From: Natronorubrum daqingense
GTDB lineage: Archaea > Halobacteriota > Halobacteria > Halobacteriales > Natrialbaceae
Direction of reading: 5' to 3'
Assembly: GCF_001971705.1 (NCBI RefSeq)
Contig: NZ_CP019327.1
Location: forward strand, 682,001-746,000
DNA length: 64,000 nt
Below, one piece after another: positions 32,287-37,631 of the stretch. Below the pieces are notes generated by a model that did no database searches, had not been told where the DNA came from, and saw nothing but the letters and a program-made list of their open reading frames with translations. Numbering within the stretch: the first letter of the stretch is position 1; each line of letters begins with the position of its first letter. Both the position numbers and the translations under genes were made by a program.

Positions 32287-32658
32287 ATGAGCTGCCACGA
32301 AATCGAAGCACTACGACTCGGACTGATGAACGTCCTCGGCGTCGGGGACCAACACGCCCGCGACCACGCGGAGAAAGAACTCGAGGGCCACCTCGAGGGA
32401 CCGATCGAGGCCCTCGTCGAGGCCGAGAACCTCGCGGCGATCGAACGCCACCTCGACGCGGCGCTGGTCGACCTCGAGGAGGAGGTCGCTGCGATGGATC
32501 GCGACGATGTCGAATACGACTACACGCGGGGCCGATTGCTCGAGGTTCGAAACGCCGAGCGAGCGATCAAGCGCCTTCGGGTGCAAAGTGAGAGCATCGT
32601 CGACGGGCTCGGGGAGGCCCACGACACGCTGCACGAACTCTTCCCGACCGAGGAGTGA
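32287..32658 (+). CDS. DUF3209-family protein
   Basis: The 123-residue helical protein starts MSCHEIEALRLGLMNVLG and continues with Glu/Leu/Arg helices, the pattern of DUF3209, which is found beside cobalt-chelatase genes in archaea and cyanobacteria. The Cys-His pair at residues 3-4 might bind metal. The association suggests help in cobalt insertion or transfer; no activity is known to me. Confidence 0.85.
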   Translation: MSCHEIEALRLGLMNVLGVGDQHARDHAEKELEGHLEGPIEALVEAENLAAIERHLDAALVDLEEEVAAMDRDDVEYDYTRGRLLEVRNAERAIKRLRVQSESIVDGLGEAHDTLHELFPTEE

Positions 32659-32660
32659 GA

Positions 32661-33962
32661 ATGGCTGAAACCGCTGATACCGACCGAGACGGCCGAACGG
32701 ACGGACGGGAGACCCTCGCGTTTCAGTCGGTCCCCCTCGGCGACATCGAGTCGGCTCGCAGTCGTCACATGTGGACCAGATCCGCGGTTCACGTGGCCGA
32801 CGACGGCGAGTGCGTCGTTACCGGCGAGTGGGACGGAACCGTCACCGCTCGAGCAACCGGGTCCGAATCGTTCGAGACCCGCTGGTCGGTCACCCACCCG
32901 GAGCACGCGGTCGGGATCACGACGCTCGAGGACGGCGGAACTGCTGAGACGGTGGTCGTCGCCGGACGCGGCGACACGGGAACCATTGCGGCCTACGACG
33001 CGACGACGGGCGACCAACGTTGGCGCTACGACACCGTCGACGACCTCGGCGAAGCCGTCAAAGACACGATCTTCTACCTCCCCTACGTCGTCGCCCTCGA
33101 GGTCGCTCCCGACGGTGAGACGCTCTACGCCGCCGGGAGACGGTACGAACGCGACGGCGAGACGCGGCGGTGGCACAGCGTCGTCTACGCGTTCGCACCT
33201 GACGGCTCGGTTCGCTGGACGTACGAAACCGACGCCTCGCCTATCGCGCTGGATATAGACGCCAGCGGGGAACGACTCGCAGTGGGATACAACCGCTGTA
33301 TGGGCGACCACGACACCGGACTCGTCGTCCTCGAGACGGGGTCGGGAGGGCTCGAGTGGACGTGGGACCCGGGCACGGACGGCGACCGCCGCGTCGGTGA
33401 CGTCTCCTTCGACGGCGACTCGATCGCGGTCTCGAGTCACGGCGACAAACGCGGGTACCTGCTCGGCCCCGGCGGCGCGGAGCGCTGGCACGTCGACCTC
33501 GCAGTCGAAACCGAACGCGAGGGAGAGACCCTCTACGCGTACCCGAACCACGCCGTCGCGAGCGACGGGACGGTGTCGTTCGTAACCGGGAACACCTACG
33601 CCGTCGACGCTCGAGAGACCGAGCACCGGCATCCACACGAGCACCGTCTCGCAACGTTCGACGCCGACGGCGACCTCCTGTGGGCTGAGGGCGTTCAGGG
33701 ATTCGTCCATGGCCTCGCGACGGACGGCGAAACGGTCGTGACGCCGTGTGCGCAGAACTTCCGCGTTCGCGACCCCGACACCCACGCCGTTCGGTGGTTC
33801 GACCGCACGTCTGGCTCCCGCGGCGTCGAACCGTTCGAGGGTATCGCTACGGCTTGTGCGTTGGCCGGGAACACGCTCGCAGCGATCGAAGAGTCCGTGG
33901 CGTACCACGACGAAGACCGAACCCGCGGCGAGTACGCACTCCACGTCGCAACGCTCGAGTAA
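32661..33962 (+). CDS. PQQ-like beta-propeller protein of the cobalamin cluster
   Basis: The 433-residue protein is made of repeated blades with the PQQ/WD-type rhythm: VVAGRGDTGTIAAYDATTGD and QRWRYD, VYAFAPDGSVRWTYETDA, VVLETGSGGLEWTWDPGTD, ATFDADGDLLWAEGVQGF. No signal peptide or Tat motif is visible, so it is probably cytoplasmic. It follows DUF3209 directly (a GTG start overlapping the stop is also possible) and should be cotranscribed. A scaffolding role is the most that can be said. Confidence 0.78.
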   Translation: MAETADTDRDGRTDGRETLAFQSVPLGDIESARSRHMWTRSAVHVADDGECVVTGEWDGTVTARATGSESFETRWSVTHPEHAVGITTLEDGGTAETVVVAGRGDTGTIAAYDATTGDQRWRYDTVDDLGEAVKDTIFYLPYVVALEVAPDGETLYAAGRRYERDGETRRWHSVVYAFAPDGSVRWTYETDASPIALDIDASGERLAVGYNRCMGDHDTGLVVLETGSGGLEWTWDPGTDGDRRVGDVSFDGDSIAVSSHGDKRGYLLGPGGAERWHVDLAVETEREGETLYAYPNHAVASDGTVSFVTGNTYAVDARETEHRHPHEHRLATFDADGDLLWAEGVQGFVHGLATDGETVVTPCAQNFRVRDPDTHAVRWFDRTSGSRGVEPFEGIATACALAGNTLAAIEESVAYHDEDRTRGEYALHVATLE

Positions 33963-34134: not shown

Positions 34135-35352
34135 ATGACAACGGGTCCGGAAGATGATGACCCAGCGGAGTGTCTGGCTCCCGCGACGGATGCAGACGCC
34201 TCGAGTCATCGTCACGACGACGGCGGCGAAGAGCGTTCGGTCACCCGACTAGTGACCGACGGCGGACAGGCAGAGCTCTCGGAAGCGTCCGAGGGTGAAG
34301 AAGAACAATCCGAATCGGAGTCGGACGACGCGGACGCGGAAACAGACGACGGTGACGATGTGGAGGCGGACGAATCGGACGAGACCGAAGCGGCGGACGA
34401 TGGATCGGACGAGACCGAAGGGGAACCCGACGACGAATCGGCCGACGATTCCGGAGACGGAAGTGACGAAACCGAATCCGACGATTCCGATGAATCCGCG
34501 GAAGACGCGGAAACGGAAGACGAATCCGACGAGGACGAAACGGAGGACGACGACGCACAACCCGACGACGCAGATGCGGACGACGGAGACGAGGAATCCG
34601 AAGACTACCACGTCGAAGACGCCGACGACGTGTACGAAGGAGACGAGGCGTCCGGCGTGCTTCACCTCGACCTCGACGGCCTCTTTCTCGATGTACTCGG
34701 CCTCGAGGTCAACCTGAATCCGGTCACGCTCGACGTGTCTGCTCGCCCGGGCGAGAACAACCTCCTCGGGAACCTGCTTTCGGCCGTCAGCGGGCTTCTG
34801 GACAGCACGATGTCGATCCCGAAGAAACTGAAATCGATGCTCGGGAAACCCGTGGAAATGCTCAAAGGGCTGCTCGAGAAGCCACGACAGGTACTCGAGA
34901 GCGTCGGCGGGAAGCTCAAAGGCCTTCTCAGCACGCTGGTGAGCAAACCCAAAGAATTGCTCTCCGCGCTCGCGAGCAAGCCGAAGGAACTGCTCAGTAC
35001 GCTCGCGAGCAAGCCGAAAGCGATACTCAACAAACTCTTGGGCATCGGCGAGTCGGACGAAGAGGCTGGTGGGGACGAAGAAGATGGGGAAGCGGAGTCC
35101 GAGATGGACGACGAGGACGAAACCGAGGAGTCAGCGGACGAAGACGCCGAATCGGACAGCCGAATCAGGGCTGCCGGAAGCTGGCTCAGAGAGAAACTGG
35201 CCGGATTGATTCCGGGGTCGCCACTCGAGGACCTCATTTCGATCGTCCTCGAGCAGGCGATCGAACAGGTTCTCAAGCAGTTAGAACCGGACCAACGAGC
35301 GGACGAATCGGGAGACGAATCTGACGCGCCGTCGCAAGCGGAGGCCCAATAA
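34135..35352 (+). CDS. Hyperacidic protein with conserved hydrophobic domain and 11-residue amphipathic repeats
   Basis: Residues 50-172 are almost entirely Asp, Glu and Ser/Thr. A compact hydrophobic domain follows at 175-223 (VLHLDLDGLFLDVLGLEVNL then SARPGENNLLGNLLSAVSGL); I recall the same module in unrelated bacterial proteins of unknown function. Residues about 228-303 carry basic amphipathic helices with an 11-residue repeat close to LLSTLASKPKE, three good copies. An acidic region and a final helix (LEDLISIVLEQAIEQVLKQL) end the protein. There is no signal peptide. The 11-mer repeats resemble surface-binding helices such as those of synuclein or phasins, so attachment to a membrane, granule or polymer is possible (inference). 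The next ATG overlaps its stop. Confidence 0.8.
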   Translation: MTTGPEDDDPAECLAPATDADASSHRHDDGGEERSVTRLVTDGGQAELSEASEGEEEQSESESDDADAETDDGDDVEADESDETEAADDGSDETEGEPDDESADDSGDGSDETESDDSDESAEDAETEDESDEDETEDDDAQPDDADADDGDEESEDYHVEDADDVYEGDEASGVLHLDLDGLFLDVLGLEVNLNPVTLDVSARPGENNLLGNLLSAVSGLLDSTMSIPKKLKSMLGKPVEMLKGLLEKPRQVLESVGGKLKGLLSTLVSKPKELLSALASKPKELLSTLASKPKAILNKLLGIGESDEEAGGDEEDGEAESEMDDEDETEESADEDAESDSRIRAAGSWLREKLAGLIPGSPLEDLISIVLEQAIEQVLKQLEPDQRADESGDESDAPSQAEAQ

Positions 35353-35885
35353 TGAGCGAACAATCCGAGTCACTGACCCAGCGAATCGACTACCAAAAAA
35401 TCACCGAGAACATCGACGTTCACGAACTCGTCGAGGGGACCCAGTGGGAGGACGAAATCGACGACGACAAGCCACTCGGGGAGGCATTGGGCGGCCAACT
35501 CGGCGCGCTCATCGGTCGAAAGATCGGCGAATCGATCGGGGAGACGATTGGCGACATGATCGTCGACGAACTGCTCAGCCCGGACGAGGATGCGGACGAA
35601 GAGACCGATGCCGAAGACGACGAAGCGACGGACGAGGACGAAGAGAGCGAAGACGACGAAGAATCAGAGGGCGATGACGAGACGGCAGAAGACGGCGACG
35701 AGACGGCAGAAGATGCGGACGAAGAAGACGAGGAAGCCGAATCCGAGTCGGAAAGCGACGACGGATCAGCAACAGACGACGCCAATGAGGGTGAGGAAAG
35801 CGACGACGCGGGCGAGGAATCGGCCGACGACTCGAGTGAACAGGCGGACGGCGACGGCGAGGAAGCCGACAGCGAGGACGACTAA
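35352..35885 (+). CDS. Hyperacidic glycine-zipper protein, 177 aa
   Basis: Residues 1-40 are helical (RIDYQKITENIDVHELVEGT). Residues 43-67 form a glycine zipper (GEALGGQLGALIGRKIGESI) with small residues every four positions, a pattern that packs helices tightly in oligomers or membranes. The remaining 105 residues are almost pure Asp/Glu/Ser. The start overlaps the preceding stop (TAATG), so expression is coupled. No family recognised. Confidence 0.78.
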   Translation: MSEQSESLTQRIDYQKITENIDVHELVEGTQWEDEIDDDKPLGEALGGQLGALIGRKIGESIGETIGDMIVDELLSPDEDADEETDAEDDEATDEDEESEDDEESEGDDETAEDGDETAEDADEEDEEAESESESDDGSATDDANEGEESDDAGEESADDSSEQADGDGEEADSEDD

Positions 35886-35945
35886 CCATGCACGTAGGCC
35901 AGCGTCTCGAGGGCAGAATCCGGCGTTGTACTCGAGGTGACGGCG

Positions 35946-36758
35946 ATGAGTGAGGGCGGATTGTCGGAACTGGTCGCACAGGAGGTAAGCGACCAACTCG
36001 AGGTGAGCGATTTGCTCGGTGAGGGATCGATCGAGGAGAGTATCGACGGCAGTGCTGTCGGTGCTGCGGTCGGGCGGGAAATCGGTGAACGCGCCGGTCG
36101 CGAACTGGGTGCGGGGATCGGACGCGGCATCCATCAGTCGCTCGCCGCCGGGTTCGAGGAGGGAAAAGACCGAACGGAGATGCAATCGGACCTCAAGACC
36201 GAGATCAAAGCCGCCCTCAGCGAGACTCTCTCGGAGAGCGCGTCGTCGGAGACGATCAAGTCGTTGACCGAACGCGTCGCAGACGACGAGGGACTCGAGG
36301 ACCTCCTCGAGGGGGAGATCGGTGGCGACGAGGCGGACGAGTCCGAGTCCGACGACGAACTGTCAGACGATGCAGACGAGACGGCTGAGAGTGAGGAGGA
36401 GGAGGGTGACACAGCCGAAGACGATGAACAAACCGACGAGGAGGGGGCGGATACCGACGACGACGAAGCGGACCAGACCGAGGAGGGTGAGGAGTCCGAG
36501 GAGCCGACGGCGGAAGACGAAGAGATGTCCGTCGAAGACATCGAAGACCTCCGCCGGGATACCCTCGAGGACTTCCTCGGAGTGATGTCCTACAACGACC
36601 TCCAATCGGTCGCAAAAGACGTCGACGTGAAGGCGAACCTCAGCCGCGAGGAGATGACCGAAGAGATCATCGCTGCGGTAACCGACGAGGAGGAGAGCGC
36701 GGAGGACACAGAAACGGAAACCGACGATACGGAGGAAGCAGAGGCGAACGCGTCGTAA
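35946..36758 (+). CDS. Hyperacidic glycine-zipper protein with SAP/Rho-N-like C-terminus, 270 aa
   Basis: Residues 1-30 are helical, followed by a glycine zipper near 35-62 (GSAVGAAVGREIGERAGREL, then GAGIGRGI), similar in design to that of the previous gene. Then comes an amphipathic helical part, about 70 acidic residues, and a C-terminal helix-turn-helix module near 200-245 (LEDFLGVMSYNDLQSVAKDV, then SREEMTEEIIAAV) resembling SAP or Rho N-terminal nucleic-acid-binding folds. I chose the ATG at 35946 rather than the GTG at 35937. Same strand, 60 bases after the previous gene. Function unknown. Confidence 0.78.
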   Translation: MSEGGLSELVAQEVSDQLEVSDLLGEGSIEESIDGSAVGAAVGREIGERAGRELGAGIGRGIHQSLAAGFEEGKDRTEMQSDLKTEIKAALSETLSESASSETIKSLTERVADDEGLEDLLEGEIGGDEADESESDDELSDDADETAESEEEEGDTAEDDEQTDEEGADTDDDEADQTEEGEESEEPTAEDEEMSVEDIEDLRRDTLEDFLGVMSYNDLQSVAKDVDVKANLSREEMTEEIIAAVTDEEESAEDTETETDDTEEAEANAS

Positions 36759-36842
36759 CCCCGCTTTCGCTCGAGGTCCCCCGACCGACCGTCATCGGCG
36801 GGCGACCCGAACGGCGGACCGGCGACACGAACGAGGCCACAC

Positions 36843-37631
36843 ATGAGTGAACCAACTACCGAAGACGTACGCGAGATTCTCCACGACGCGGAGACAGCGA
36901 GCGCGTCGATGCTCGGCGACGATGGGAGCGAGTCGGACCAGCCCGACGTACTCGAGGCGGCCGAACAGGCGAGTGCGTTTCTCGAGTCCGCAGACCCATC
37001 GGAGATACTCGAGGCGGTCGGATTGGAGACGTTGCCGGACGGCAGCGAGCCGGATTCGATCCCGGAGGCGATCGCGCAGGGGGATCCGGAACGCGTCGAC
37101 ACGCTCCAGCAGCTATTCCACCTCGCGAATCTGGCCGAGGCCGATCACGAGGGACTCGAGACGGTAGCCGACGCGCTCAGGCACTCTCGGGAGGAACCAC
37201 AGGAAGAAGAGATGAGTACCGACGATCAGGCGGACACAGACGAACCCGCCGACGATGACGAGGCGGACGAATCGGAGATCGGCGAGCAACTCCGAGACGC
37301 GTTTCAGTCGACGGTAACCGACGTAAGCGACGACCTCGAGGGCCTCACACAGCGACTCGAGGAAGCGACAGCCGGTGTCGTCGACGGTGAGGATGAGGAG
37401 GCGGACGAGGCGACCGACGAAGTGGAGGAGACGGACGAAGAAGGAGCCGAAAAAGAGGGTGCCGAAGGCGACGAAGACGACGACGGACTGCTCGATCCCG
37501 GACTCGGTTCCGACGACGGCGACTCGGGGGGCAAAGATCGAGAGCGGCTTTCGACCGTCGCACCGTCACCCTCCGAACGGGCGGACATGAACGTCTCGAC
37601 CAACTATTCGACGATGCCGGATTCGAAGTGA
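36843..37631 (+). CDS. Hyperacidic helical protein, 262 aa, last of the acidic quartet
   Basis: The N-terminal 120 residues are helical with repeats of a VLEAAEQASAFLESADPSEI type. After an acidic stretch comes a helix FQSTVTDVSDDLEGLTQRLE that could form a coiled coil, then a Glu/Asp-rich segment and a polar tail ending NYSTMPDSK. The composition matches the three upstream proteins. It probably belongs to the same transcript, though the 84-base gap could hold a promoter. No known family. Confidence 0.75.
   Translation: MSEPTTEDVREILHDAETASASMLGDDGSESDQPDVLEAAEQASAFLESADPSEILEAVGLETLPDGSEPDSIPEAIAQGDPERVDTLQQLFHLANLAEADHEGLETVADALRHSREEPQEEEMSTDDQADTDEPADDDEADESEIGEQLRDAFQSTVTDVSDDLEGLTQRLEEATAGVVDGEDEEADEATDEVEETDEEGAEKEGAEGDEDDDGLLDPGLGSDDGDSGGKDRERLSTVAPSPSERADMNVSTNYSTMPDSK

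Follow-up and report, generated by a model that had tools for sequence, protein, structure and literature searches.

What do four consecutive genes for hyperacidic proteins do in the genome of the haloarchaeon Natronorubrum daqingense? They lie in the window, which is the whole stretch of 64,000 nucleotides that was analysed (contig NZ_CP019327.1, positions 682,001 to 746,000), as four co-directional open reading frames (ORFs) on the + strand at 34135-37631, and are here called A, B, C and D, or together the quartet. We think it very probable that the quartet serves gas vesicles as an accessory operon, unlinked from the main gvp cluster, in haloarchaeal lineages that are without gvpC, and we have still less doubt that it is linked to gas vesicles as such. 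To our knowledge gas vesicles are the only gas-filled protein organelles.

The Asp and Glu fractions of A, B, C and D are 0.33, 0.46, 0.36 and 0.33, the four highest among the 58 ORFs called in the window (mean 0.19, standard deviation 0.07), and stretches of 40 residues reach 57-72% Asp or Glu, which confirms the four hyperacidic neighbours described in an earlier note on this DNA. The acidic stretches vary in length and sequence across species, and the islands between them are conserved. Conserved synteny had been set beforehand as a check of that note, and the order and strand A-B-C-D turned out to be identical in all 42 loci examined in the family of the window, from about 28 genera, a count that allows for misses of the ORF picker (the D genes of L062, L063 and L084 were recognised separately). 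The core of A is found in 104 and the core of D in 105 of the 121 genomes of the family. That the set was called undescribed is true for A, B and C, which gave no match above the cut-off in Pfam or NCBIfam, but not for D, which is homologous to the known protein GvpI. In the parts of the literature that were consulted, with PMC7688916, PMC9372576 and PMC9501494 among the sources, we found neither the quartet nor a substitute for GvpC described.

Occurrence of the quartet and the gas-vesicle genes

The same 244 genomes of the class were searched for gvpA, the A domain, the C profile, the GvpC repeats and the polyhydroxyalkanoate (PHA) synthase. We found gvpA in 98 genomes and the A domain in 78; all 78 A-positive genomes also carry gvpA, and none of the 146 genomes without gvpA has the A domain (Fisher p 2e-45, with shared ancestry ignored). 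Within the family of the window gvpA is missing in 6 of 61 genomes, all six of them without an intact quartet, and these joint losses include single species within two genera (g8 and g5) that otherwise have both. In one genome without gvpA (G096, L166) nothing but fragments of these genes, of A and of C, is left, and they lie between the PQQ/cobalamin genes and the genes for universal stress protein (USP) and acetyl-CoA synthetase (ACS), which is the expected place. G109 (L281) also has a decaying quartet, in which A is truncated and the tail of D apparently frame-shifted, though gvpA is present there.

The distribution of GvpC is complementary to that of A. Arrays of the Halo_GVPC repeat (PF05465), defined as three or more repeats, occur in 12 genomes, all with gvpA and none with A, and among the gvpA-positive genomes this exclusion has a p of 1.6e-10 when shared ancestry is ignored. 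Single-repeat PF05465 matches in G218, G240 and G299 (E 4e-4 to 7e-4) were left out of the GvpC count; A is present in G299, but the PF05465 match there is on a different contig from the gvp genes. The A type and the GvpC type are both present in each of the families f2, f3 and f4, and there has therefore been more than one switch between them. Because the quartet is found only in genomes that carry gvp genes and are without GvpC, it probably builds or reinforces gas vesicles in a different way.

The gvp cluster of N. daqingense itself (gvpMLKJIHGF / gvpA-N-O) is located at 1.476-1.483 Mb, about 0.76 Mb from the quartet. It holds neither gvpC nor gvpDE, and there is no PF05465 match anywhere in the genome. 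The missing gvpC agrees with what is reported for relatives, since vac regions without gvpC and gvpDE were described for the gas-vesicle-negative (Vac-) Natrialba magadii, Natrinema pellirubrum, Halopiger xanaduensis, Natronobacterium gregoryi and Haladaptatus paucihalophilus (PMC4390858), and for N. magadii also in PMC3403918. Table 1 of PMC9501494 assigns gvpACNO to Natrialba and relatives, in conflict with both of these papers and with our PF05465 search.

GvpC is an accessory to GvpA, as A would be; both have tandem amphipathic helical repeats and an acidic region, and both are found only in genomes with gvpA. The repeats of GvpC are acidic and 32 residues long, whereas those of A are 11 residues long, rich in Lys and Pro and joined to a separate conserved domain, and gvpC is placed between gvpA and gvpN (the gvpACNO slot), where A is not. 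The idea that A is a distant GvpC was rejected (hhalign 0.1%, and no Pfam match for A). The tandem amphipathic repeats in the acidic A support that it works like GvpC, not that it is a member of the GvpC family.

Linkage to gvp genes is seen in other haloarchaeal families, which were reached by searching the class with the profile of C. There, A homologues and homologues of B, of C or of both are neighbours of gvpA, gvpF, gvpG, gvpO and others, with the gvp identities taken from a Pfam check on ten proteins (GvpG, GvpL/F, Gas_vesicle, GvpO, GvpK). A and a B/C protein are found between gvpH and gvpI in L148 and L207, gvpA-gvpO is followed by A-B-C in L141, L145 and L155, and the whole ABCD set is directly beside gvpO-gvpA in L146. 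In L224, a metagenome-assembled genome of the Natrialbaceae, gvpA-gvpO is followed by A-B-C-D on the same strand, and quartet homologues are in or beside a gvp cluster at L150 and L153 as well.

Judged by its sequence, D is a homologue of GvpI. The alignment with the GvpI proteins of gvp clusters extends over 253 columns (hhalign 99.5%, E 2.2e-22) and includes the tail with its STxP motifs, which GvpI tails repeat. D is acidic, with an isoelectric point (pI) of about 4.05, whereas the Halobacterium GvpI is basic (pI 10.8, PMC9501494), and D is encoded together with A, B and C and not between gvpH and gvpJ. Since D is part of the quartet and the same genome has a separate gvpI of 312 aa in its gvp cluster (L159:9430-10368), we file D as a homologue and not as GvpI itself. 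According to PMC7688916, loss of GvpI leads to extremely long vesicles, and GvpI promotes the oligomerisation of other Gvp proteins. There is also a further GvpI-like protein outside gvp clusters (L054:4341-5138, L056:3587-4417, L055:4230-5012, L058:3358-4179 and L065), with a basic tail STVP...RRW; it adjoins a gene of 302 or 303 aa in L054, L056 and apparently L055 and L065, which by eye is pdxS in L054 and L056.

The promoters of A and gvpA also resemble each other. Of 41 family loci, 40 have a single copy of the element GCAYRYGCAAG ahead of A, and the window holds it once, against 0.17 expected. In 23 of 25 family loci CTTGCANNNGCA is found 51-60 bases before the start codon of gvpA, and in the opposite orientation it resembles the quartet element, which stands at a similar distance ahead of its gene. 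In this genome the promoter of A and that of gvpA both fit YGCNNNYGCAAG, a pattern made post hoc by inspection of the compared promoters; the 3.84 Mb of the genome contain 100 sites of it, and two of these lie between gvpF and gvpA. A search near the gvp genes for a longer string of the quartet promoter gave none. In Natrialbaceae (L261-L280, L159) there is in addition a strongly conserved GGCTTGCAGNCGCAGNGCNAGCC some 35-57 bases upstream of the start of gvpA, which is a probable regulator site in clusters without GvpE.

Parts of the four proteins

The details that the earlier note had read in the proteins were found again: the amphipathic helix repeat and the single conserved hydrophobic domain in A, the two glycine zippers in B and C, with GxxxG glycines that are invariant in the alignments, and the SAP-like module at the C-terminus of C. 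No signal peptide is present in the translated N-termini of A-D. The features are given in Table 1.

Table 1. Features of the quartet and its promoter, in positions of the window
Feature	Position	Strand	Basis
Promoter element CGCACACGCAAG (GCAYRYGCAAG), 53-43 bases before A start codon	34081-34092	+	Family conservation
Gene A, 405 aa	34135-35352	+	ORF call, alignment
Conserved hydrophobic domain of A (HLDLDGLFLDVLGLEVNLNPVTLDVSARPGENNLLGNLLSAVSGLLD)	34642-34806	+	21 invariant columns among 21 sequences
Seven Lys/Pro-rich 11-residue amphipathic repeats of A	34816-35049	+	Periodicity, helical moments, AlphaFold2
Conserved C-terminal amphipathic helix of A (GLIPG.P.EDL...)	35164-35286	+	Alignment, AlphaFold2
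Gene B, 177 aa, overlaps A stop codon	35352-35885	+	ORF call
Glycine-zipper helix of B	35478-35576	+	Invariant GxxxG glycines, 20 sequences
Gene C, 273 aa	35937-36758	+	ORF call
Glycine-zipper helix of C, residues 38-75	36048-36161	+	Alignment, structure prediction
SAP-like helical module of C, residues 199-261	36531-36719	+	pLDDT mostly >90, weak Foldseek matches
Gene D, 262 aa, GvpI homologue	36843-37631	+	hhalign against gvp-cluster GvpI
Conserved C-terminal tail of D, tandem STxP motifs (STVAPSPSERADM..YSTMPD)	37539-37628	+	Alignment

A begins with a TDGG motif and an acidic arm, and continues with the hydrophobic domain, the 11-residue repeats, an acidic linker and the C-terminal amphipathic helix. 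Its sequence has an identity of 0.39 at lag 11, and in 99% of shuffled versions no lag reaches 0.25. The repeat region has a net charge of +11 and the rest of the protein -117, and the helical moments of the repeats are 0.32-0.52. The AlphaFold2 model of A, with a predicted local distance difference test score (pLDDT) of 62, has short helices at the repeats and no fold for the conserved domain. Sequence searches of the PDB with the A and D profiles gave chance-level matches only.

A relative of the A domain, CDILNLVLGPLDLNLLGLEVHL...NLLGNLLCAVAGLLD (hhalign 97.7%), is found in secreted proteins of Nocardioides, Mycobacterium and Chloroflexi and in a haloarchaeal protein of the twin-arginine (Tat) type in L060. 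The secreted proteins have a signal peptide as well as a conserved pair of Cys residues, whereas A has neither, as would be expected for a cytoplasmic version of the domain. The A domain belongs within a wider family of small secreted Cys-pair proteins of Actinobacteria, Chloroflexi and haloarchaea (L232, L235, L239, L243, L245, L246, L253, L258; L060:3765-4580; L059:4317-4967). Some gvp clusters hold A homologues of 590-780 aa (L141:4039-6387, L145:3985-6303, L153:7625-9394) with tandem beta-type repeats (ELTVTV...GDPV.GA..TV) ahead of the domain.

B consists of an N-terminal glycine zipper and a hyperacidic tail, and C of a glycine-zipper helix, an acidic linker and the SAP-like module; from the alignment, the start of C is probably the ATG at 35946. 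The two proteins are related to each other (hhalign 97.7%), as are their zippers. The module of C has three helices (199-216, 219-228 and 237-261), mostly with pLDDT above 90, and its weak Foldseek matches are the SAP folds of DEK and 3'hExo. For DEK the probability is 0.60 and the root mean square deviation 0.9 over 42 columns, but with E 7.6; the Foldseek search of C against the PDB gave nothing below E 0.001, and a Pfam match to SAP is also absent. In other Halobacteriales genomes the same module is fused via an acidic linker to ribosomal protein S3 (L147:7223-8170, apparently L152) and to an Hsp20-like protein (L151:6955-7551), and matches in G138 and G284 were set aside as S3 or Hsp20-like proteins that share the module and are not members of the quartet. 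In D the N-terminal part is helical, and an amphipathic helix and the conserved tail with two STxP motifs complete the protein.

Upstream of A, at 32655-33962 of the window, there is a gene for a PQQ/BamB-like beta-propeller protein, which in about 20 of the 42 loci stands beside cobalamin genes (CbiX-like, DUF3209), and which tracks these and not the quartet.

Weighing the explanations

Four acidic proteins could be neighbours by chance, or belong to the cobalamin, USP and ACS genes around them, and we consider this extremely improbable. Cobalamin genes are indeed upstream, and USP and ACS genes downstream, but in only about half of the 42 loci, and because of this we take the quartet itself as the unit; its order is kept in at least 20 of the 42 loci without those flanks, and it tracks gvpA instead. 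A function in that neighbourhood was rejected, as the flanks vary. The self-assembling cytoplasmic structure that the earlier note proposed, a coat, granule surface or compartment, is partly supported, and the coat of a compartment came close: the synteny, the gvp-cluster homologues and the co-occurrence with gvpA point to one known protein compartment, the gas vesicle. A storage granule is disfavoured by the distribution of PHA genes. D and a D-like GvpI do give weak matches, below the cut-off to YtxH and perilipin for D and to PHA_granule_1 for the latter, as a phasin-like system on the surface of PHA or another storage body might. No family match passes the cut-off, however, no linkage to pha genes was seen, and PHA synthase (TIGR01836) is unmatched in 23 of the 78 A-positive genomes and present in 74 genomes without A, unlike gvpA, which has no exceptions. 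The PHA granule was rejected on this distribution, and a storage-body surface in general is very improbable.

The two other alternatives keep the link to the gvp genes. If C binds nucleic acid through its SAP-like module, the quartet could control gvp expression in place of GvpD and GvpE, and gvpDE is, together with gvpC, missing in relatives (PMC4390858, PMC3403918) and in the own cluster. The GvpC clusters L163, L168 and L170 are, however, also without adjoining gvpDE-like genes and still have no quartet, and the exclusion therefore tracks GvpC and not GvpDE. D is moreover homologous to an assembly protein and hyperacidic proteins are poor DNA binders, which makes regulation decidedly unlikely. 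The gvp cluster and the quartet could also make a protein shell derived from the gas vesicle that has lost the gas or the role in flotation, since relatives with this type of cluster were scored Vac- (PMC4390858). Nothing else is missing from the gvp set (M L K J I H G F A N O), which is widely conserved with the quartet, and Vac- may reflect laboratory conditions only, and we find such a shell unlikely.

A gas-vesicle accessory operon in place of GvpC has its own difficulties. The quartet is outside the gvp cluster in this genome, A has no profile homology to GvpC, its AlphaFold2 model is of low confidence (pLDDT 62), and the 11-residue period, which many relatives of A share, is weak or missing in some. 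The co-occurrence statistics take no account of shared ancestry, and in eight gvpA-positive genomes (G006, G109, G069, G174, G215, G240, G256 and G260) both an intact A and a clear GvpC array are missing. The main caution is that the published relatives with this type of gvp cluster were scored as gas-vesicle negative (PMC4390858); these clusters may be expressed only under certain conditions or have another product. In G006 a divergent GvpC-like protein of 416 aa occupies the gvpC slot between gvpA and gvpN (L160:9684-10934), and its C-terminus looks SAP-like rather than like the usual CxxC...H module of GvpC.

A proposed shell without GvpC

We infer that the quartet proteins are physically present on the vesicle, and a mechanism can be outlined. 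A would coat the GvpA shell from the outside, with its conserved domain and the Lys-rich 11-residue helices resting on the ribs and the acidic arms facing the cytoplasm, and would in this way strengthen and shape the vesicle, which is the job of GvpC. B and C could bundle via their glycine-zipper helices and act as adaptors that tie A to the assembly complex, and D, via its STxP tail, could modulate the length of the vesicles and the oligomerisation of accessory Gvp proteins. That A is a functional replacement of GvpC has about an even chance in our judgement. The wider claim, that ABCD, from an operon apart from the gvp cluster, provides a second, GvpC-independent way to build and reinforce the shell in a large share of the haloarchaea that encode gas vesicles, and that clusters regarded as incomplete and silent are in fact complete, is one on which we are evenly divided.

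Gas vesicles have been engineered as ultrasound reporters, with the strength of the shell tuned via GvpC. If the quartet completes the clusters without gvpC, it would add three new Gvp families and a new shell-modifying protein for such engineering. It was left open in PMC4390858 whether the gvpC-less vac regions of gas-vesicle-negative haloarchaea are expressed, and on the same condition the question becomes directly testable. The gvp cluster alone would then not be the full gene set for gas vesicles in these species.

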